From Bradyrhizobium cosmicum (lineage in GTDB: Bacteria > Pseudomonadota > Alphaproteobacteria > Rhizobiales > Xanthobacteraceae): 64,000 bases of DNA. The notes beneath the pieces are model-generated. The model saw nothing but the letters and a program-made list of their open reading frames with translations. It was not told where the DNA came from and searched no databases. Below, in pieces: positions 13,360 through 57,519 of the stretch (position 1 is the first letter of the stretch; every line of letters starts with the position of its first letter). The stretch spans positions 6,076,001 through 6,140,000 of the forward strand of contig NZ_CP041656.2 of NCBI RefSeq assembly GCF_007290395.2, given 5' to 3'. The translations under genes and the position numbers were made by a program.

Positions 13360-13728
13360 CGCTTCGCCAAAAGGCTTCGCGTGGCGCAGCCACGCCAATG
13401 ATGGCGAAGCGTGTCCGGCATAGCTCGAAGAGCGTCGACGGACTGGTGCGTCTTGCTCCCGCTCAAAATGTCGAAAACAACCCCATGCACAGTAGCCGAC
13501 ATCCGTCGGATCAAGATATTGCGCATTTTCCGAAATTTGCTTGCGCCGTCGGGCGAAACAGGGGCATGATGGCATCGTCCGGGAAGTGTCGTGGTACATC
13601 GGCTTTTTGTTTTGCGCATGAGGCTTCGTCGTCTTGCGAGCGCAGCGAAGCAATCCAGATTCTTTCCGCGGAGACAGACTGGATTGCTTCGCTGCGCTCG
13701 CAATGACGGAGCAAGGGTCGAGACCGCC
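13360..13728. other. 369 bp intergenic region without a gene
   Basis: Between tRNA-Val and the DedA-like gene I see no supportable coding sequence. Open frames here run through the palindromic repeat at 13634-13703 and have no ribosome site or family resemblance. A short palindrome follows the tRNA CCA end (CGCTTCGCC...GGCGAAGCG, about 13360-13410) and may end the tRNA transcript. Confidence 0.7.
13634..13703. repeat. RPE-type palindromic element, copy 1
   Basis: Perfect 25 bp inverted arms, 13634-13658 (starting TTGCGAGCGCAGCGAAGC) and 13679-13703, separated by 20 bp. The same arms occur at 35789-35868 and 41894-41973. This is a dispersed palindromic element, with no coding capacity. Confidence 0.9.
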
Positions 13729-28828: not shown

Positions 28829-31081
28829 ATGCACGACGATTCCGTCCGAGTCGGGTGGATATCCCCCAGCACCGAGGCCGATGAGCTTGCTCTCTCATCG
28901 GGGCTGACGGAGGGCCAGCGGCGAATATTTCCTTGGACGCCGTCCCGCTTTGCATTCGGGAATGATCGCGAGGCGCTTCAGGCCATCGACGCCGTCGCGT
29001 CGTCGCATGACGGCTTCGTCGTGTCGGGACTATCGCTCACGGAAGTCGAATCCCTCTTCAATCTCCGCGCGCTGCAGCTGCTCGGTCGCCAGGCGCGGTA
29101 TGACGTGCCCTCGATCATCATCCTCGAACAGGGATCGTCACCGGCGTTCTTTCACCGCCTCGGTGACCGAATGCGCAGCGGCTGGCCGTTCCGGTCGGCG
29201 CTCTTCGTCGGAGATCCAGACTGTGTCGAACGACTGCGCAACGAGGGCCTGGTCGCCCTCGAGCGCGCGGAAGCGAACCGGTACGGCCTTGCTGCGCTGC
29301 TCGAACGTGGGGATGGTGCATTCGAGAGCATGCTGGCGGATCAAGTGCTCGCTGTTCAGTTCCAGCCGGCCTGGTTCTATGGGGGCAGCCATACGGTTTT
29401 CTCCAACCAGGTCGAGGCGATGCTCGACCGCGGATGGTTCGTCCTGCGCGTCATCGTCGAACCGGAAGGCTGCCCCGGCCCGACGATGCGGCGGCGCATT
29501 GCGAAGTTCGTCGCGGAGACAAACGTGGATGCGACAACGCACATCGACACGCTGGCATGCGCCACCGGCTTGCCCGCAATCGTCGACGATCGCGAGGCGG
29601 ACGAATATTTACGCCATGCGATCCGTGGCCGGATCAATCTCGTTATTCCCGACGATCTGATGTCGGATCTCGTCGCGCGCGCCGACATTGCCGTCATCAA
29701 CTATGTCTATCACATGGGCTTCGCACTCACGGCGTGTCCCGCCGCGAAATATGTCCTGGAAACCCACGACGACATCACCTGCATGCGGTTGACACAGTGG
29801 CGCGTGCTGCCCGAAGCGCCCGCATTCTCCGCCCCCGGAACCTTGAAGAGGCATCTCAGGCTGGAGCGGCTCGCCTGGCACACCGTCGACGTCTGCATCG
29901 CGCTGTCGCTCTCGGACCTCAGGAAAATCCGGCGGCACGCGTCCCGATTCGTCTTCGTTCTGCCGAGACCGTACGCGCGCCCGGCCCTCAAGGCCGGACC
30001 CGATGCCCCCTGGGACATCCTGATCGTGATGAACCCTCACCATTTCAACGTCCCGGCGCTCGATCGCTTCCTCAACGACGTCATCGCATGCGATCCCCAA
30101 CTGGCAAAACTCAGGATCGCCATCGTGGGCCGCGTCAACGAGGTCCTCGAAGCGCATTGGAAGAACAGGCTGCCCGCGACGCGATGGTTCGGCTTTGTCC
30201 CGGACATCGATTCCTTGCGCGATTCATCCCGCATCTCGGTGTGCCCCGACGAGCACGGCACGGGCATCGCGATCAAGACGCTGACGGCGATGGCGGCCGG
30301 CCACCCCATCGTCGCCACGCCCACCGCGCTGCGCGGGTTGCCCGACGAAATTCTCGAGCTGATTCCGCCAGCGATTGGCGCTGCCCGAATGCAGGATCAG
30401 ATTCGGACGCTGTTGAGCGACGAGAGCCTGCTGGAACAGCGAAGCAACGCCGTTGCCGTCGCGGCCGGTCTGCTCTGGCCTGCGACGGGTCACGGGCGGG
30501 CACTGAGCATGGCGATGGAAGCCGGACCCGACACGTCGCGACGTCGCGCGGACTTCCTGGCCTCGCTCGGACAGGAATCGCCCCCTCCTCCAATCGACCT
30601 GAATGAGAGGCGCATTCGCTTCGGCGCCGGCGGCAACGACCGCCCTTTTCTCGGCCTCAACTGGCTCAACGACGAACCGGGGGGGCGATGGAGCGACGGA
30701 TCGTCGGCGACCGTCAGGCTTCCAGGCGCCTGGATGACGCAGGCCTGCCGGCTCAAGATCACGTTCATGGAGTCGTTCCAATGCACGAAGATCACGCTCA
30801 GACATCGCGGCGTCTCTCTTAAGGGAAGGGTAAGGTCGCCCGGCGCGATGACATTCAATCTCGACCTCAAGGATCGCGCCCACGACGATTTCGTGGAGCT
30901 GGAGATGTCGTGTCCGGCCGCCTTCTGCCCCAGCGAGAACGGCATCGGCAACGACGAGCGAGTGCTCGGCATGCACATCCGCACGATCGAGGTCGTCCCT
31001 CTGCCCTGGCACGCCGCGCTCGTCGCAAGAGCGCGCAAGATGTTCGGCGACAAAGCGCTGTTTCAGCCAACCAACGCCTGA
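28829..31081 (+). CDS. Large GT4-type glycosyltransferase with extra N- and C-terminal domains
   Basis: 750 residues. The central part is a GT-B glycosyltransferase: VINYVYHMGFALTACPAAKYVLETHDD, RIAIVGRVNEVL, and the donor-binding stretch DEHGTGIAIKTLTAMAAGHPIVATPTALRGLP (about 475-505). About 150 N-terminal residues (MHDDSVRVGWISPSTEADE...) and 180 C-terminal residues (LNWLNDEPGGRWSDGSSATVRLPG..., a beta-rich stretch) lie outside the catalytic fold. The gene stands alone, with 247 bp of non-coding DNA before it. Acceptor and donor are unknown; a polysaccharide role is likely. Confidence 0.75.
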   Translation: MHDDSVRVGWISPSTEADELALSSGLTEGQRRIFPWTPSRFAFGNDREALQAIDAVASSHDGFVVSGLSLTEVESLFNLRALQLLGRQARYDVPSIIILEQGSSPAFFHRLGDRMRSGWPFRSALFVGDPDCVERLRNEGLVALERAEANRYGLAALLERGDGAFESMLADQVLAVQFQPAWFYGGSHTVFSNQVEAMLDRGWFVLRVIVEPEGCPGPTMRRRIAKFVAETNVDATTHIDTLACATGLPAIVDDREADEYLRHAIRGRINLVIPDDLMSDLVARADIAVINYVYHMGFALTACPAAKYVLETHDDITCMRLTQWRVLPEAPAFSAPGTLKRHLRLERLAWHTVDVCIALSLSDLRKIRRHASRFVFVLPRPYARPALKAGPDAPWDILIVMNPHHFNVPALDRFLNDVIACDPQLAKLRIAIVGRVNEVLEAHWKNRLPATRWFGFVPDIDSLRDSSRISVCPDEHGTGIAIKTLTAMAAGHPIVATPTALRGLPDEILELIPPAIGAARMQDQIRTLLSDESLLEQRSNAVAVAAGLLWPATGHGRALSMAMEAGPDTSRRRADFLASLGQESPPPPIDLNERRIRFGAGGNDRPFLGLNWLNDEPGGRWSDGSSATVRLPGAWMTQACRLKITFMESFQCTKITLRHRGVSLKGRVRSPGAMTFNLDLKDRAHDDFVELEMSCPAAFCPSENGIGNDERVLGMHIRTIEVVPLPWHAALVARARKMFGDKALFQPTNA

Positions 31082-32981: not shown

Positions 32982-33184
32982 CCACAGGCCGCCCCCTTAA
33001 AAAACACAAACAAATTCATATATGTAGTGAGCCATTCCTGGGGGCCACGGCCGGTGCCGGCGCGCCATTCGGGGTCGGCATGGCGATGCTCACATGAACG
33101 GCATCGGCCATGAGACGGCGCTGTCATGCGACACCATTAACTTGTCTGTCGCGGCTCGCCGCTACAATATGTTGGATTGATCTT

Positions 33185-33245
33185 GCGCCGCCGGTAGCGG
33201 CGCGACCGAGCCAGGCCCGTCCGAGCGGCGGGCCGTTGGCTTTTT
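33185..33245 (+). promoter_or_regulatory. Two-hairpin leader ahead of the URC operon
   Basis: Hairpin 1: GCGCCGC (33185-33191) with GCGGCGC (33197-33203). Hairpin 2: AGCCA plus GGCCCG (33209-33219) with CGGGCC plus TGGCT (33229-33241), with a 2-base bulge, followed by TTTTT (33241-33245). The ribosome site GGGAG (33246-33250) follows at once. The second hairpin has terminator form only 12 bp before the start codon, which suggests transcription attenuation. A terminator for the gene 230 bp upstream is the alternative. Confidence 0.5.
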
Positions 33246-33257
33246 GGGAGTTTGGTC

Positions 33258-34514
33258 ATGAGCCGCGCGAACCGTACCGACCACATCCGCCTGACCTCCC
33301 ATCCAGAGCCGGGCCGGAAGGCCGCCTTCCCGATCCATTGGGGTGCCGCAGATGCGCGTGCCCGCGGGCCAATCATCGGCACGGTGTCGCGCGCCGGGGA
33401 TCGCAACGTGATCGGCAGCCATGGCGGCTCCTATGCGATGTACCGCGCGCTCGCCGTTTCCGCCGGCGCGCTCGATCCGATCCGGCGCCCTGACCTCACC
33501 AACACGTTTCCGGCAGCGACCATCGGGCCATTCGAGCAATGGCGCGATCCCGCAAAGATCGTCGCGCTCGATCCCTGGGGGCATCTGGTCGCGGAGAATT
33601 TCGGCAAGGACATCGCCGAGGGAATCGATATCCGTCCGAGCATCGCGGTGACCCGCGCGCGGCTGGACCTGCCGGAGATCCGCGAGGCGCTGGCGGCAAA
33701 GCGGCTGCGCGCCGACGGTGAGGTCGTGCATGCCAATGGCAGCGTCTCCGTGGTGAAGATCGCGATCGATCCGGTCTGGTATCTGCCCGGCCTTGCCGAG
33801 CGCTTCGGCATCGGCGAGACCGAGCTGCGCCGCACGCTGTTCGAGCAGACCGCCGGCATGTTCCCCGAGCTCGTGACCCGGCCGGACATGAAGGTGTTCC
33901 TGCCGCCGATCGGCGGCACCACGGTCTACATGTTCGGCGACGTGACCAAGCTGCCCGATCATCGCACCAAGATCACCTGCCGCGTGCATGACGAGTGCAA
34001 TGGCTCCGACGTGTTCGGCTCCGACATCTGCACCTGCCGGCCCTACCTGATCCACGGCATCGAGGAATCCGCGCGCGGCGCGCAGGAGGGCGGGCTCGGG
34101 CTCGTCATCTACAACCGCAAGGAAGGCCGCGCGCTCGGCGAGGTCACCAAATTCCTGGTCTACAATGCGCGCAAGCGGCAGGAGGACGGCGATGCGGCCG
34201 CCGCCTATTTCGAACGCACCGAATGCGTCGCCGGCGTCCAGGATGCGCGCTTCCAGCAATTGATGCCGGATACGATCCACTGGCTCGGCCTGAAGCGCAT
34301 CGACCGGTTCCTCTCGATGAGCGACATGAAGCACGACGCGTTGACATCGCAGGGCATCGATATCGTCGAGCGCGTGCCGATCCCGCTCGAGCTCATTCCG
34401 GCCGACGCCCATGTCGAGATCGCCGCGAAGAAGGCTGCCGGCTACTACTCGACCGACATCGCGCCCGAGACGGACGTCAACGGCGTGGTCGGGCGATCGC
34501 TGGAAAAATATTGA
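33258..34514 (+). CDS. GTP cyclohydrolase II-like protein of the URC uracil-degradation pathway
   Basis: 418 residues, about twice the size of RibA. The C-terminal half keeps the GTP cyclohydrolase II zinc pattern C-x10-C-x-C (C247, C258, C260 in ECNGSDVFGSDICTC) and the RKEGRALGEVTK arginine/lysine loop. The first 180 residues are an added domain. In the yeast URC pathway URC1 is a GCHII-like protein needed to degrade uracil through a riboside intermediate. The next two genes (DUF1688, Upp) complete that cluster. ATG 33258 is chosen over an in-frame TTG at 33252. Confidence 0.88.
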   Translation: MSRANRTDHIRLTSHPEPGRKAAFPIHWGAADARARGPIIGTVSRAGDRNVIGSHGGSYAMYRALAVSAGALDPIRRPDLTNTFPAATIGPFEQWRDPAKIVALDPWGHLVAENFGKDIAEGIDIRPSIAVTRARLDLPEIREALAAKRLRADGEVVHANGSVSVVKIAIDPVWYLPGLAERFGIGETELRRTLFEQTAGMFPELVTRPDMKVFLPPIGGTTVYMFGDVTKLPDHRTKITCRVHDECNGSDVFGSDICTCRPYLIHGIEESARGAQEGGLGLVIYNRKEGRALGEVTKFLVYNARKRQEDGDAAAAYFERTECVAGVQDARFQQLMPDTIHWLGLKRIDRFLSMSDMKHDALTSQGIDIVERVPIPLELIPADAHVEIAAKKAAGYYSTDIAPETDVNGVVGRSLEKY

Positions 34515-34521
34515 TCAAGCG

Positions 34522-35760
34522 ATGACCGACGCTCTGGAACTGCAGGCCCGCTCGCTGCTCAGTGCAGAAGCGGTTCGCGCGCGGGCCGGCGACATGCTCG
34601 AGATCGGCCTGAACGGCGGTCTCACGCATTTCACCGTCGATCTCGATCACATGGACGCCGTCGCGGAAGCCGTGCTCGCGGTGACGCGAAAGGCCTATCC
34701 GACGCTGGAGATTCCCTTCCATGCGCGGTGGCGGCATTTCGTGCTCGGCGGCATCGACCGCTGGGCGCGGCTGGCGGATGCCGCATCGTGGCCTGACCGC
34801 GCCACACGTGCGCGCGCGGAATTCGACCTCGCCATCGTCAGCGTTCTGCTCGATGCCGGCGCGGGTGCTGTGTGGCGCTACCGCGACGCGGTGACGGGAG
34901 AAGGCATCGGCCGGTCCGAGGGGCTCGCGATCGCGAGCCTCGATATGTTCGCAAGCGGCCTGTTTTCCGGCGATCCGCGCGCCCCCTTCAGGGTCGATGC
35001 GGATGTGCTCGCAACGCTGCCGCTCGCCGCACTGACATCCGCGTTTCAGGTGACGGACGCCAATCCCCTGCTCGGCCTCGAAGGCCGTACGGATCTCCTG
35101 CAGCGTCTCGGCCGGCTCGTCGCGGAGCGCGCGGATGTTTTCGGCCTGCACGACAGCCCACGGCCGGGCGGCCTGTTCGACTACATCGCAGCGCAAGCCA
35201 AGGACGGCGCCATCGCCGCGCCCGCAATCCTCTCCGCGGTATTGAACCAGCTTGGGCCGATCTGGCCGTCGCGACTCGAACTCGCCGGGATTCCGCTCGG
35301 CGATTGCTGGCGCCATCCCGCGCTTCAGACGGATGATGCGACCACCGGCCTGGTGCCGCTGCACAAGCTGTCGCAATGGCTGAGCTATTCGCTGATCGAG
35401 CCGCTCCAGCGTGCCGGCTTCGACGTCACCGATATCGACGGCCTGACTGGGCTTGCCGAATATCGCAACGGCGGCCTGTTCGTCGATCATGCGGTGCTGC
35501 GCCTGCGCGATCCCGCCGACGCCGGGCGCGCGCATGCGGTGGACTCGCTGCTCGTCGTCGAGTGGCGCGCACTGACTGTGGCGCTGCTCGACCGGCTGGC
35601 TGAAATCGTTCGCGCAAAACTCGACCGCACGCCGGCCTCGTTGCCGCTCGCCAGCATCCTGGAAGGCGGCACCTGGGCCGCAGGCCGCGCCATTGCCTTT
35701 GCGCGCCGCCCCGATGGTTCGCCGCCGCTCAAGGTGATCAGCGACGGCACGGTGTTTTAG
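34522..35760 (+). CDS. URC4-type DUF1688 protein
   Basis: 412 residues, start ATG at 34522, 7 bp after the URC1-like gene. Family sequence: ALELQARSLLSAEAVRARAGDML at the start, HARWRHFVLGGIDRW, LLDAGAGAVWRYRD, SEGLAIASLDMFASGLFS, and LDRTPASLPLASILEGGTWAAGR at the end, the DUF1688/Urc4 pattern. In yeast URC4 is essential for the same uracil-degradation pathway; its reaction is not settled. It is found almost only beside URC1-type genes. Confidence 0.9.
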   Translation: MTDALELQARSLLSAEAVRARAGDMLEIGLNGGLTHFTVDLDHMDAVAEAVLAVTRKAYPTLEIPFHARWRHFVLGGIDRWARLADAASWPDRATRARAEFDLAIVSVLLDAGAGAVWRYRDAVTGEGIGRSEGLAIASLDMFASGLFSGDPRAPFRVDADVLATLPLAALTSAFQVTDANPLLGLEGRTDLLQRLGRLVAERADVFGLHDSPRPGGLFDYIAAQAKDGAIAAPAILSAVLNQLGPIWPSRLELAGIPLGDCWRHPALQTDDATTGLVPLHKLSQWLSYSLIEPLQRAGFDVTDIDGLTGLAEYRNGGLFVDHAVLRLRDPADAGRAHAVDSLLVVEWRALTVALLDRLAEIVRAKLDRTPASLPLASILEGGTWAAGRAIAFARRPDGSPPLKVISDGTVF

Positions 35761-35788
35761 ATCATGAACAGAGATTTGCGACCACGCA

Positions 35789-35868
35789 CGTCATTGCGAG
35801 CGCAGCGAAGCAATCCAGAATCTTTCCGCGGTGGGACTCTGGATTGCTTCGCTGCGCTCGCAATGACG
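35789..35868. repeat. RPE-type palindromic element, copy 2, inside the URC operon
   Basis: 31 bp perfect inverted arms, 35789-35819 (starting CGTCATTGCGAGCGCAGC) and 35838-35868, separated by 18 bp. It fills most of the 136 bp between the DUF1688 gene and upp, so the third gene of the operon is separated from the first two by a strong cruciform. Confidence 0.9.
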
Positions 35869-35896
35869 ACTCGATGAATTTCAGGAGCATCCGATC

Positions 35897-36526
35897 ATGG
35901 AAGGCGTCACGATCGTCGATCATCCGCTGGTGCAGCACAAGCTGACGCTGGTGCGGGACAAGTCCATCTCGACCAAATCATTCCGCGAGCTGATCAAGGA
36001 GATCGGCATGCTCTTGTGCTACGAGGTCACGCGCGACCTGCCGCTCGCCGACACCGTGATCGAGACGCCGCTGGCGACGATGCACTCGGCCAAGATCGCC
36101 GGCAAGAAGCTGGTGTTCGTGCCGATGCTGCGTGCCGGCACGACCTTCGTCGACGGCATGATGGATCTGGTGCCGACCGCGCGGGTCGCGCATATCGGGC
36201 TCTACCGCGAGCCGCACAGCTTTGCGGCGGTCGAGTATTTCTTCAAATCGCCATCCGATCTCAGCGAGCGCCTGGCGATCGTGGTGACGCCGGTGGTTGC
36301 CACCGCCAACACGGCCGTGGCCGCAATCGACCGGCTGAAGGAGCGCGGTGCGAAAGACATCCGCCTCGCCTGTTTGATCGCCGCGCCCGAAGGGCTCGAG
36401 CGGCTGCGCGGCTTGCATCCGGACGTACCGATCTGGACGGCGGCGGTTGACGAAGGCCTCGACGAGAACGGTTTTATTTTGCCGGGCCTCGGCGACGCCG
36501 GCGACCGCGCTTACGGGACGCGATAA
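35897..36526 (+). CDS. upp: Uracil phosphoribosyltransferase, URC-linked, with altered PRPP loop
   Basis: 209 residues, aligning with E. coli Upp over the full length. Conserved parts: [52 protein letters not shown] and [12 protein letters not shown] (uracil binding). The PRPP-binding loop departs from the canonical DPMLATGGS: here it reads TPVVATANT (residues 131-139), so the acidic residue and the glycine pair are replaced. In the URC pathway this enzyme supplies the uridine nucleotide. The substitution may alter affinity or indicate a related reaction. Confidence 0.9.
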
Positions 36527-38845: not shown

Positions 38846-39101
38846 AGATTAGTCGAGCCCCAAGACGGGCGGGTTCGATTTGGCTCGATTTCCGTCCGCT
38901 TCTTGCATGATTCCACGGGCAACGGCGTGCGGGAGATCACGTTGACAGACCGACGTGACGGCCATCCAACCCTCTCGCAAAGGTTGGATGTGGCGAAACT
39001 CACCCTTGCTCCGGCGCCGACAACGGGCTGTAATTGCAAATCAAATACCGCAGCGCAGAATTCATAAAAAGGCGCGCGGGGAAATGTCAGGGAGAACGGT
39101 C

Positions 39102-40367
39102 ATGCATGGGACCATCGAGAGCGCGGCCAAGCTCGACGCATTGCGCGAGCGTGCGTCATCACTGCCGCTGGAGCAGTTCGATCCGGGCGATCCCGAATTG
39201 TTCAGGACCGATACGTTCTGGCCCTATTTCGACCGCCTGCGCCGGGAAGATCCCGTGCACTATTGCAAGGACTCGATGTTCGGGCCGTACTGGTCGGTGA
39301 CGCGCTACAACGACATCATGGAGATCGAGACCAACCATTCCGTGTTCTCCTCGGCCTCTTCGCTTGGCGGCATCACCATCCGCGACATCGACCCGGATTT
39401 GCGCCGCGAGAGTTTTATCTCGATGGACCCGCCGCGCCATGCCGCCCAGCGCAAGACCGTGGCGCCGATGTTCACGCCGACGCATCTGGACAATCTCGCC
39501 CTCAACATCCGCAAGCGCTCGGCGGAGTGCCTCGACAATCTGCCGCGCGGTGAAGTGTTCGACTGGGTCGATCGCGTCTCGATCGAGCTCACCACTCAGA
39601 TGCTCGCGGTGCTGTTCGACTTTCCCTGGGAGGACCGCCGCAAGCTGACGCGCTGGTCCGATATCGCCACCACCATTCCCGGGCCCGACGGCCTCGTCGC
39701 CACCGAAGACGAGCGGCAGGCCGAGCTTGCGGAATGCGCCGGCTATTTCGCCCGGCTGTGGAAGGAGCGCATCGCGCAGCCGCCGAAAAGCGACCTGCTC
39801 TCGATGATGGCGCATGGCGCCGCGACGCGCGACATGGATGCCAAGAACTTCCTCGGCAATCTCATTCTTTTGATCGTCGGCGGCAATGACACCACCCGCA
39901 ATACCATGTCAGGCTCGCTCCACGCACTGAGCCGGCATCCGGAGCAGTATCGCAAGCTGCGCGACAATCCGGCGCTGCTCGACAGTTTCGTGCCGGAGGT
40001 GATCCGCTGGCAGACGCCGCTGGCGCATATGCGCCGCACCGCGCTCGCCGATTTCGAGTTCCGCGGCAAGCAGATCAGGAAAGGTGACAAGGTCGTGATG
40101 TGGTACGTCTCGGGCAACCGCGACGAGGAGGCGATCGAGAAGCCCTACGACTTCATCATCGATCGCGCCCGCCCGCGCACGCATCTGTCCTTCGGCTTCG
40201 GCATCCACCGCTGCGTCGGCTTGCGGCTTGCCGAACTCCAGCTCAAGATTATCTGGGAAGAGATCCTGAAGCGTTTCGACCATATCGACGTGGTCGGTGA
40301 ACCCAAGCGGGTCTATTCGAGTTTCGTAAAGGGTTTTGAAGCTCTGCCGGTGAAGATTGCGGCGTGA
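39102..40367 (+). CDS. CYP153-like cytochrome P450, first copy
   Basis: 421 residues, start ATG 39102 with GGGAGAA 8 bp upstream; an ATG 18 bp earlier is possible. P450 motifs: I-helix GGNDTTRN (oxygen-activation threonine), ExxR in EVIRWQ, and the heme loop FGFGIHRCVG with C371. The sequence FDWVDRVSIELTTQMLAVLFDFPWEDRRKLTRWSD and MWYVSGNRDEE is characteristic of the CYP153 group, soluble bacterial alkane or fatty-acid terminal hydroxylases. No ferredoxin or reductase gene is adjacent, so electron donors must come from elsewhere. Confidence 0.9.
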   Translation: MHGTIESAAKLDALRERASSLPLEQFDPGDPELFRTDTFWPYFDRLRREDPVHYCKDSMFGPYWSVTRYNDIMEIETNHSVFSSASSLGGITIRDIDPDLRRESFISMDPPRHAAQRKTVAPMFTPTHLDNLALNIRKRSAECLDNLPRGEVFDWVDRVSIELTTQMLAVLFDFPWEDRRKLTRWSDIATTIPGPDGLVATEDERQAELAECAGYFARLWKERIAQPPKSDLLSMMAHGAATRDMDAKNFLGNLILLIVGGNDTTRNTMSGSLHALSRHPEQYRKLRDNPALLDSFVPEVIRWQTPLAHMRRTALADFEFRGKQIRKGDKVVMWYVSGNRDEEAIEKPYDFIIDRARPRTHLSFGFGIHRCVGLRLAELQLKIIWEEILKRFDHIDVVGEPKRVYSSFVKGFEALPVKIAA

Positions 40368-40607: not shown

Positions 40608-41882
40608 ATGAACATCCAGACTCCGGTCAAGACCGACAAGGCCGAACGCATGCGCAGGGCCCGCGAGGAGGCCTATGCGACGCCGCTGGCGCAGTTTCAC
40701 CCCGGCGCGCCCAGGCTGTTCCAGGACGACACGCTGTGGCCGTGGTTCGAACGGCTGCGCGAGGAAGAGCCGGTGCATCACTGCACCAACGCGCCGATCG
40801 AACCGTACTGGTCGGTGGTGAAGTACGACGACATCATGCATGTCGACACCAATCACGGCATCTTCTCATCCGACTCGACGCTCGGCGGCATCGGGATCCG
40901 CGACGTGCCGCAGGGCTATGACTGGCCGAGCTTCATCGCGATGGACCAGCCGCGTCATTCGTCGCAGCGCAAGACGGTGTCGCCGATGTTCACGCCGGCG
41001 CATCTGGACGAGCTGGCAAAACTGATCCGCCAGCGCTCGCAGACCGTGCTCGACAATTTGCCGCGCAACGAGACCTTCAACTTCGTCGAGCGGGTCTCGA
41101 TCGAGCTGACGACGCAGATGTTGGCGACCCTGTTCGACTTCCCCTGGGACGAGCGGCGCAAGCTGACGCGCTGGTCTGATGTCGCGACCGCGCTGCCCAA
41201 GAGCGGCATCGTCGCCTCCGCCGAAGAGCGCCGCCGCGAGATGGACGAGTGCTACGCCTACATGTCGAAGCTCTGGAACGAGCGCGTCAACTCCGCGCCG
41301 CGCAACGACCTGTTGTCGCTGATGGCGCACAACGACGCCACGCGTTTCATGGACCCCGACAACCTCATGGGCAACATCATCCTGCTCATCGTCGGCGGCA
41401 ACGACACCACGCGCAACACCATGACGGGCTCGGTGCTGGCGCTGAACGAGAATCCCGAGCAGTACGACAAGCTCCGCGCCAATCCGGAGCTGATCGATTC
41501 CATGGTGCCGGAGGTGATCCGCTGGCAGACGCCGCTGGCGCATATGCGCCGCACCGCATTGCAGGACACTGAAATCGGCGGCAAGCACATCAAGAAGGGC
41601 GACCGCGTCGTGATGTGGTACGTCTCCGGCAACCGCGACGAGGAGATGTTCGACAAGCCGAACGAGTTCATCATCGACCGCCCGCGGCCGCGCACCCATC
41701 TCTCCTTCGGCTTCGGCATCCACCGCTGCGTCGGCATGCGCCTTGCCGAGCTGCAGCTCAGAATCGTCTGGGAGGAGATGCTGAAGCGGTTCGACCGCAT
41801 CGAGGTGGTCGGCGAGCCGAAGCGGATCTATTCCAGCTTCATCAAGGGATATGAGTCGCTGCCGGTGCGGATACCGGGATAG
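40608..41882 (+). CDS. CYP153-like cytochrome P450, second copy
   Basis: 424 residues, closely similar along its whole length to the P450 240 bp upstream. It carries GGNDTTRN, EVIRWQ and FGFGIHRCVG with C374. The active-site lid region differs (TLGGIGIRDVPQGYDWPSFIAMDQPRHSSQ against SLGGITIRDIDPDLRRESFISMDPPRHAAQ in copy 1), so substrate range may have diverged after duplication. Start ATG 40608 follows a GGAG-type site. Confidence 0.9.
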   Translation: MNIQTPVKTDKAERMRRAREEAYATPLAQFHPGAPRLFQDDTLWPWFERLREEEPVHHCTNAPIEPYWSVVKYDDIMHVDTNHGIFSSDSTLGGIGIRDVPQGYDWPSFIAMDQPRHSSQRKTVSPMFTPAHLDELAKLIRQRSQTVLDNLPRNETFNFVERVSIELTTQMLATLFDFPWDERRKLTRWSDVATALPKSGIVASAEERRREMDECYAYMSKLWNERVNSAPRNDLLSLMAHNDATRFMDPDNLMGNIILLIVGGNDTTRNTMTGSVLALNENPEQYDKLRANPELIDSMVPEVIRWQTPLAHMRRTALQDTEIGGKHIKKGDRVVMWYVSGNRDEEMFDKPNEFIIDRPRPRTHLSFGFGIHRCVGMRLAELQLRIVWEEMLKRFDRIEVVGEPKRIYSSFIKGYESLPVRIPG

Positions 41883-41893
41883 GCTCTATCCAC

Positions 41894-41973
41894 CGTCATT
41901 GCCAGCGCAGCGAAGCAATCCAGAATCCCACCGCGGAGACAGTCTGGATTGCTTCGCTGCGCTCGCAATGACG
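41894..41973. repeat. RPE-type palindromic element, copy 3
   Basis: 31 bp arms, 41894-41924 and 41943-41973, with one mismatch (GCCAGC against GCGAGC), spaced by 18 bp, placed just after the second P450. The remaining sequence to 42109 holds no gene I can support. Confidence 0.88.
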
Positions 41974-55782: not shown

Positions 55783-57519
55783 ATGGCCGCCACCGCCGCT
55801 TCACGATTGTCCGAACTCCTCCGTGCGACCAGCGCGCGCCAGGTGCGGCTGGTCTGCGGGATCATCCTGTTCGCTTACGTGGTCAGCCATTTCCTCAACC
55901 ATGCGCTCGGCAATATCTCGGTCGATGCCATGGAGGTCGGGGTCATCTACCATACCCTGTTCTGGCAGTTCCTCCCCGTAGCGCTCGTGTTCTACACCGC
56001 CGCGCTCACCCATATGGGTCTGGGCATCTACGCGCTGTATCAGCGCCGACAGTTCCGCTGGCGGACGATCGAGCCGCTCCAGCTCGTGCTGGGGCTGAGC
56101 ATCCCAGCGCTCGTCATGGCGCATGTGATCGGGGTGCGGCTGGGTCAGACGCTGTACGGACACGAGAAGCTCTATCCGCAGGAGCTTTACCTCTTCTTCG
56201 TCGCGGCGCCCGGCCGGCTCTGGCTGATGACGATCCTGCTCGTCATCGCCTGGATCCATGGCTGCATTGGCATCTATTTCTGGCTCCGCCTGAAACCGTT
56301 GTTCGCCCGCGCTGCGCCCTACCTGCTGGCGGCCGCCGTGCTGATCCCGACGCTGGCGTTGCTCGGCATCTACCAGGGCGGCCGCAGCGTCGCGATCGAA
56401 GCCGACGATGGGGAGTGGCGCACGCACAATCTGACGCGGCGCCAGGTTGGAACGGTCGCCGAGGCCGACACGCTCGACCGCATCTCCGGCGGCCTCACCA
56501 TCGGCTATCTCGGCCTGCTCGCCCTGGCGCTCGCGGCGCGCGGCGTACGCGCCTTGCGCGAACGCCGCGGCGGCATGATCGCGCTGTCCTACGGCAACGG
56601 CAAGACGGTGCGCGTGCCCAAGGGCCTCTCCGTGCTGGAAGCAAGCCTGCGCCATAATCTGCCGCATGCCAGCGTCTGCGGCGGCCGCGCCCGCTGCTCG
56701 ACCTGCCGTATCCGCATCATCGGCGATCATGCCTCCCTGCCCGAGCCGTCGCAGCGCGAAGCTTTCGTGCTCGCGCGGGTCGGCACCGCCGATCCCTCGA
56801 TCCGGCTCGCCTGCCAGCTGCGGCCGGAGACCGACCTCTCCTTCTTCCAGCTCTTCATGCCGCACACATTGTCGGCCAACGCGCATGCTTCGGCGCCCAC
56901 CAGAATCGGCCAGGAGCGCTATCTGGTCAGCCTGTTCGTGGATATGCGCGGCTCGACGCAGCTTGCCGAGAAACGGCTGCCGTTCGACACCGTCTTCATC
57001 GTCAACCGCTTCCTCGGCGCGGTGTCGCAGGCCGTGATCGAGAACGGCGGCCAGCCCAACCAATTCGTCGGCGACGGCATGCTGGCGCTGTTCGGCCTGT
57101 CGGCCGATCCGCAAGAAGCCTGCCGGCAGGCGCTGAAGGCAGCCAGCGGCATCGCCGCGAACATCGACGAGTTGAACCAGCTCCTGAGTCATGATCTGCG
57201 CCAGCCGATCCGCTTCGGCATCGGCGTTCACTGCGGCGAGGTCATCATCGGCGACATCGGCTATCGCGATCACATCGTCTTCACCGCACTCGGCGATGCC
57301 GTCAACGTCGCCGCCCGCCTCCAGGACATGACCAAGATGCTGGCTTGCGAGGCGATCGTCTCGGACGAGGTCCGCCGCACCGCCGGCCTTGCGGACGATT
57401 CGCTGCCGCAGCAGGACGTCGCGATCCGCGGCCGCGACGAGCCGATGGCCGTGCGGGTGGTTGCGGATGCGAGGATGCTGTCGGGACTCGTCGATGGCAG
57501 CGCGCGCGTGGCGGCGTGA
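55783..57519 (+). CDS. cyaC: CyaC-type redox-sensing adenylate cyclase
   Basis: 578 residues in three parts. Residues 20-255 form a six-helix membrane anchor resembling SdhC/diheme-B quinone-reactive domains, with histidines H36/H40, H77, H114 and H159 as heme-ligand candidates. Residues 265-360 are a plant-type 2Fe-2S ferredoxin domain (C299, C305, C308, C344). Residues 380-550 are a class III cyclase domain (metal D387 in VDMRGST, D431 in VGDGMLALF). Sinorhizobium meliloti CyaC has this same make-up and responds to the quinone redox state. Divergent from the GT39 gene. Confidence 0.92.
   Translation: MAATAASRLSELLRATSARQVRLVCGIILFAYVVSHFLNHALGNISVDAMEVGVIYHTLFWQFLPVALVFYTAALTHMGLGIYALYQRRQFRWRTIEPLQLVLGLSIPALVMAHVIGVRLGQTLYGHEKLYPQELYLFFVAAPGRLWLMTILLVIAWIHGCIGIYFWLRLKPLFARAAPYLLAAAVLIPTLALLGIYQGGRSVAIEADDGEWRTHNLTRRQVGTVAEADTLDRISGGLTIGYLGLLALALAARGVRALRERRGGMIALSYGNGKTVRVPKGLSVLEASLRHNLPHASVCGGRARCSTCRIRIIGDHASLPEPSQREAFVLARVGTADPSIRLACQLRPETDLSFFQLFMPHTLSANAHASAPTRIGQERYLVSLFVDMRGSTQLAEKRLPFDTVFIVNRFLGAVSQAVIENGGQPNQFVGDGMLALFGLSADPQEACRQALKAASGIAANIDELNQLLSHDLRQPIRFGIGVHCGEVIIGDIGYRDHIVFTALGDAVNVAARLQDMTKMLACEAIVSDEVRRTAGLADDSLPQQDVAIRGRDEPMAVRVVADARMLSGLVDGSARVAA

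Follow-up and report, generated by a model that had tools for sequence, protein, structure and literature searches.

A uracil-catabolic URC operon of Bradyrhizobium with a predicted nucleotide N-glycosidase, a candidate leader attenuator and an altered uracil phosphoribosyltransferase

The yeast URC genes, known as URC1, URC4 and URC6 in L. kluyveri and as urg1, urg3 and urg2 in S. pombe, are described as clustered and induced by uracil in the latter species (PMC2174524). In the L. kluyveri model urea is handled by the urea amidolyase URC3/URC5 (PMC7530994). Here we analyse an operon of the same three families in Bradyrhizobium cosmicum, found in a window of 64,000 nucleotides (positions 6,076,001 to 6,140,000 of contig NZ_CP041656.2, assembly GCF_007290395.2, a genome that consists of a single contig of 7,271,215 bases). 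Unlike the yeast genes, the bacterial operon carries a leader hairpin and a changed motif in its uracil phosphoribosyltransferase (UPRT), and urea is presumably passed to urease rather than to an amidolyase. Taken as a whole, the evidence makes it probable that this is a Bradyrhizobium URC operon in which Urc4 acts as a phosphoribosylurea glycosidase, the leader as an attenuator and the linked UPRT in a changed role. Gene content and order, the fold prediction, the conservation of the leader and the lost residue are direct results; the reactions, the attenuation and the new role of the UPRT are drawn from them.

The genes follow one another on the forward strand: urc1 (33258..34514, 418 amino acids), which encodes a probable uridine triphosphate (UTP) cyclohydrolase-type protein; urc4 (34522..35760, 412 amino acids), which encodes a DUF1688 protein; and a UPRT paralogue (35897..36526, 209 amino acids; PF14681, TIGR01091). 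Seven bases separate the first two genes and 136 bp the last two. A first-pass annotation had named a GTP-cyclohydrolase-II-like protein, DUF1688 and UPRT in this order on a single strand, and the Pfam matches bear this out (GTP_CH_N, E-value 2.3e-79, and GTP_cyclohydro2, 5.2e-12, for urc1; DUF1688, 7.9e-145, for urc4; UPRTase, 3.5e-71). Its end of the operon, 36526, is correct; its start, 33185, is not, for an in-frame TAG lies at 33195-33197 and the conserved ATG is at 33258. Among 398 genomes drawn from the phylum, PF07958 (DUF1688) and PF12471 (GTP_CH_N) were found in the same 26, near each other in each, so that the association is not due to chance. A clustering of open reading frames (ORFs) over 89 urc loci (80 named loci, eight fetched regions and the window) made the three URC families the most widely shared genes around urc, with 83, 81 and 75 loci as against 34 for the next family, the shortfalls from 89 being partly due to a mechanical choice of ORFs. 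The locus is therefore a URC operon, an already known kind; family matches, gene order and co-occurrence all support the first-pass annotation in this assignment. The word 'complete' fits less well: the three families are adjacent, but in this lineage the UPRT is without the canonical Asp of the phosphoribosyl pyrophosphate (PRPP) motif and the use of urea is encoded elsewhere. Our search of the literature on pyrimidine catabolism found nothing on the regulation of bacterial URC genes or on the fold of Urc4, although a likeness between DUF1688 and DUF2419 may be in print elsewhere; the same may hold for the leader and the UPRT change, neither of which was met in the literature and libraries searched.

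Urc1 matches the NCBIfam equivalog NF005536, which bears the name GTP cyclohydrolase II, with 746 bits and, over residues 10-417, a full-length relative of known structure with 571 bits (PDB 7ej3/7eev, deposited as 'GTP cyclohydrolase II'). The title of a 2021 paper in ACS Catal reportedly speaks of a UTP cyclohydrolase, and we infer that these PDB entries are that published enzyme. The match shows no domain difference, and Urc1 may share the substrate. In a 420-residue reading from 33252, C249, C260, C262, Y304, D331 and R333 align with C54, C65, C67, Y105, D126 and R128 of chain 2bz0, which confirms the C-x10-C-x-C pattern noticed earlier; given the roles that we presume for the Cys, Tyr, Asp and Arg residues of 2bz0, Urc1 retains the Cys triad and the catalytic residues of the cyclohydrolases. 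These aligned residues, together with the name of NF005536, are what would speak for a riboflavin-type GTP cyclohydrolase II. That identity is nevertheless highly improbable, as a better PF00925 score is found at a separate place in the same genome, the RibA models stay under their cut-offs for Urc1 (57.9 against 148 and 48.2 against 205.85) and Urc1 is tied to DUF1688 in 26 of the 26 genomes of the phylum draw. The equivalog name is probably misleading for the URC-linked enzyme at 33258-34514. The additional N-terminal domain of about 180 residues that had been remarked upon is real (residues 11-199) but not peculiar to this protein; its candidacy as a new domain was rejected, since it is PF12471, present in all 26 DUF1688-bearing genomes, and its spread over these genomes and the urc loci makes it a regular part of the family. 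As a UTP cyclohydrolase-type enzyme, Urc1 would act on a uridine nucleotide (for the published enzyme UTP, to judge by the paper's title) and open its uracil ring to give a phosphorylated ribosylurea and a C3 fragment.

The chemistry of Urc4 had been called unsettled. Its reaction is still a matter of prediction, but the prediction is now concrete, in that Urc4 is predicted to be a nucleotide N-glycosidase with a DUF2419/QNG1-like fold. QNG1 (DUF2419) is, we take it, a queuosine-5'-phosphate N-glycosidase; by likeness to its action on that substrate, Urc4 would hydrolyse the N-glycosidic bond of phosphoribosylurea to release urea and ribose-5-phosphate. The two proteins belong to different pathways and are 16-21% identical over the aligned parts, with ribosylurea as the predicted substrate of Urc4. 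The invariant residues K282 and E313 of Urc4 are 31 positions apart, as compared with 32 for K199 and D231, which are named as mutants in the titles of DUF2419/QNG1 entries; the pairing is made by spacing, and the active-site motifs of the two families may resemble each other. Several sequence-based results weigh against this assignment. The Pfam model Q_salvage does not match the Urc4 of the window; among 58 relatives its best match has an E-value of 0.00064 and the matches are weak; and of ten relatives scanned singly, eight gave none and two scored 12.9 and 10.9 bits, the cut-off being 25. When Urc4 was compared with the PDB sequences, neither a DUF2419 chain nor a residue-level alignment to DUF2419 was obtained, and a fold, in any case, does not demonstrate a reaction. 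Among the 120 matches listed for Urc4, the named relatives are Bradyrhizobium proteins, several titled 'URC4/urg3 family protein', and the closest besides the genome's own is 96% identical.

The urea so formed would go to urease encoded elsewhere in the genome, where the urease alpha-subunit has two matches above cut-off. The Rut system was rejected as an alternative route for uracil, there being no RutA match above cut-off in the genome. Two matches to D-hydantoinase/dihydropyrimidinase do exceed the cut-off, and because such genes exist a reductive route is possible and URC need not be the sole uracil route, a point against the reading proposed here. One of them lies in a cluster (L140) with a hydantoin racemase and a nitrilase-type domain and looks hydantoin-type. 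Look-alike genes, judged by eye (families f16, f29 and f30), are also found near urc in L061, L064, L069 and L093. In a paper on rhizobial pantothenate, the breakdown of uracil is linked to beta-alanine (PMC7142369).

Immediately upstream of urc1 is a leader that was absent from the earlier description. On the forward strand it comprises weak promoter-like elements (33142..33168; TTGTCT, a spacer of 15 nucleotides and TACAAT), a hairpin of variable sequence termed P1 (33185..33203), a terminator-like hairpin termed P2 (33209..33245; core GGCCCGTC-CGAGC-GGCGGGCC, a lower stem and then five T) and GGGAG (33246..33250), which, judging by the sequence and the leader alignment, probably serves urc1 as ribosome-binding site. 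From about 33130 up to the start codon, the sequence, with TACAAT, both hairpins, the five T and GGGAG, is strongly conserved in 32 leaders (the window and 31 loci). Folding of positions 33182-33246 gives -40.6 kcal/mol, where shuffled sequences average -29.66 (z -3.41), and none of 4227 Rfam families matched 33000-33300 at an E-value up to 5. Transcription would cross these two hairpins just before entering urc1, and an attenuator is the most likely function.

Over 81 loci, in four of which urc1 was not located, the P2 pattern occurs once in 50, starting 41-95 nucleotides upstream of urc1, and nowhere else in those loci. A covariance model built on the alignment of 27 loci (A3) gave 27 matches at E-values up to 1.2e-7 among 60 relatives, searched with stricter filters at the loss of weak matches; all are on the strand of the urc1 domain match and precede it by 26-29 nucleotides, in a comparison of positions that took 41 of the 60 genomes. 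Eight weaker matches (2.5e-5 to 8.6e-4) are located elsewhere. Within the genus, urc1 is present in 28 of 36 genomes and the leader match in 27 of these 28, while the eight genomes without urc1 have no strong match (one weak match, in G401, at 2.2e-4); the source genome has a single match. Stems with at least seven G-C pairs were found within 80 nucleotides of the start in 45 of 61 urc1 genes and in 27 of 651 other ORFs, and in none of 47 control families did they reach half; these counts rest on the urc1 leaders found, with 28 of the 89 loci left out and the starts of control ORFs set mechanically. Outside Bradyrhizobium, a folding z below -2 is reached by 22 of 37 leaders, as compared with 21 of 234 other ORFs from the same loci. 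The stem and folding counts thus indicate that in several further lineages this place is taken by hairpins of a different kind, and in some by none. L112 and L114 (genomes G338 and G379) have TACATTGCATTTTTTGAGG near the urc1 ATG instead of a strong hairpin; the arrangement of a -10 element followed by A-T6-G recalls what we take to be the UTP-sensitive initiation regions of E. coli pyrimidine genes.

Two other explanations of the hairpins have to be weighed. P2 could be merely the terminator of the upstream gene, since it is terminator-like in shape and was listed by a terminator scan. Yet the hairpin persists while the gene upstream of urc1 differs among lineages and is divergent in many loci, which makes this reading very unlikely. 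The standard consensus scan of the leader region returned no promoter; of the 50 loci with the hairpin 19 were chosen, and among these TA[TC]A[AGT]T occurs within 95 nucleotides upstream of the hairpin in 11 (random windows: 85 of 4000) and within 25 nucleotides downstream of it in none, as would not be expected had the hairpin belonged to the preceding gene. Alternatively, the inverted repeat of P2 could be a DNA operator for some regulator. The near-invariance of its core stem in the 27 aligned loci is as expected of a protein site, and promoter-like elements are near. The spacer between the arms is variable, however, and a T-run follows the stem. The lower-stem flanks of P2 co-vary, pairing better than permuted flanks (0 of 5000 permutations for 27 distinct pairs; 240 of 20000 when thinned to 13). 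In P1 the sequence varies while pairing is mostly retained, with three of ten pairs altered on both sides, 93.8% of cells paired and a covariation score above all 500 shuffles. We therefore consider an operator rather unlikely.

The attenuator itself faces a number of contrary observations. The count of P1 pairs changed on both sides was equalled in 94 of 500 shuffles, and the P2 core varies too little to show two-sided changes, which is partly due to selection by the pattern. The T-run does not adjoin the core stem outside the nearest Bradyrhizobium, and the 40 Bradyrhizobium leaders have a median folding z of only -1.58. The exact P2 pattern is absent from 31 of the 81 loci, including Bradyrhizobium L070 and L091; G430, the one genome of the genus with urc1 and no match, has a different kind of leader; and in G447 and G449, urc1-bearing genomes from other families, no match lies beside the gene.

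The third gene of the operon departs from its family. The linked UPRT reads TPVVATA, with Thr131 in place of the Asp, where the canonical PRPP motif is D-P-M-[LV]-A-T-G, and the unlinked UPRT of the same genome, to which it is identical at 128 of 209 positions, has DPMLATG (in DPMLATGNSA). Over 115 UPRTs, a set inflated by close relatives and possibly counting some genomes twice, 47 of 87 urc-linked proteins have another residue for the Asp (Thr 28, Ser 12, Val 3, Asn 2, His 1, Ala 1), as against none of 28 unlinked ones, 21 of which come from a draw of 60 genomes whose 21 full-length non-URC UPRTs all keep it. A quickly built tree (81 rows after thinning at 97% identity, motif columns excluded) puts the loss down to three changes: one in a clade with support 88 that comprises 19 rows from Bradyrhizobium and kin, one in L105 (Caulobacter sp.) with G256 and one in L108 (a Pseudolabrys metagenome-assembled genome). 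The Gly-to-Ala change in the motif was rejected as URC-specific, being present in three of the 21 non-URC proteins as well. The median ratio of non-synonymous to synonymous substitution within Bradyrhizobium is 0.042 for the linked UPRT (n=30), 0.066 for urc1 (32), 0.128 for urc4 (32) and 0.073 for the unlinked UPRT (8); the low value of the linked gene speaks against decay.

Such strong purifying selection would also suit an ordinary UPRT that tolerates Thr or Ser at 131 and supplies the pathway with uridine monophosphate (UMP). The protein keeps LRAG from 78, LYRE from 102 and GDAGDR from 199, hence the Arg residues for PRPP and the presumed catalytic Asp200; roles for the aligned residues of the M. 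tuberculosis and B. caldolyticus (Asp200) enzymes are proposed in PMC3570474. Of the ten genomes in the phylum draw whose linked copy lacks the Asp, seven were found to have an intact second UPRT; in this draw no linked copy was found in G111, where the contig ends, and one unlinked copy of G246 was left unread. No second full-length UPRT was found in G217, G200 and G256, which counts against a changed role and led us to reject the rule that the Asp is lost only where a backup exists. On the other side stand the retention of the Asp in every non-URC UPRT read, the occurrence of Val and Ala among the replacements, and the accompanying changes of Met133 to Val (44 of 47) and Tyr193 to Phe (40 of 47). 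An ordinary enzyme is thus a serious possibility, though in our judgement not the favoured one. Under the changed role that we prefer, canonical UMP formation would probably fall to the second, intact UPRT, and the Asp-less protein would retain another selected function. In L070 and L091 a canonical UPRT lies divergently, directly upstream of urc1, both loci being without the GGCCCG hairpin; L070 has an Asp-less UPRT downstream too, so that both paralogues share one locus.

PyrR-type attenuation controls pyrimidine operons, and PyrR comes from a phosphoribosyltransferase family other than that of UPRT. The likeness is that the Bradyrhizobium operon, also one of pyrimidine metabolism, combines a terminator-like leader with a UPRT-like protein; the family differs, and by analogy the linked UPRT might bind RNA. 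Extending this, the operon might be a self-gated overflow valve for uridine nucleotides, in which plentiful UTP, or binding by a UPRT paralogue turned UMP/uracil sensor, lets transcription pass the U-tract terminator of a new attenuator, and the products destroy UTP through ring opening by Urc1 and then a DNA-glycosylase-like cut of phosphoribosylurea by Urc4. We offer this last scheme as a conjecture that is more likely wrong than right by a wide measure.

The gap between urc4 and the UPRT gene holds a palindromic dispersed repeat (35790..35867; z -9.86 for the fold of the gap). Its arm of 30 nucleotides has five matches in the window where none are expected; full copies with GTCATTGCGAGCGCAGCGAAGCAATCC arms are at 35790-35867 and 41895-41972, and a single arm is at 13678-13707. 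The repeat takes up much of the gap in the source strain, for which reason a UPRT promoter in these 136 bp was rejected, and it is probably not part of the operon mechanism. Upstream of the leader, 28829-31081 encodes a glycosyltransferase-like protein of 750 amino acids, whose family (f69) adjoins urc1 only here and in L043 among the 89 loci. Downstream are two adjoining cytochrome P450 genes (38955-40367 and 40608-41882) of a family (f8) with 56 ORFs in 28 of the 89 loci, and a protein with 2Fe-2S and adenylate/guanylate cyclase domains (55783-57519). In Microvirga (L076, L078-L081, L086), urc lies among ORFs whose first residues resemble an oligopeptide-type ABC transporter, phosphopentomutase and thymidine phosphorylase.

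Urc4 has so far been the URC enzyme without a mechanism, and its predicted DUF2419/QNG1 fold would reduce the question to one assay with one substrate and two products, while tying together base salvage, the folds of DNA glycosylases and pyrimidine breakdown. As a candidate regulatory RNA the leader is compact, has one target in each genome and could be tested by a reporter. The change in the linked UPRT implies that annotation at the family level may wrongly call the URC pathway complete in many Bradyrhizobium.

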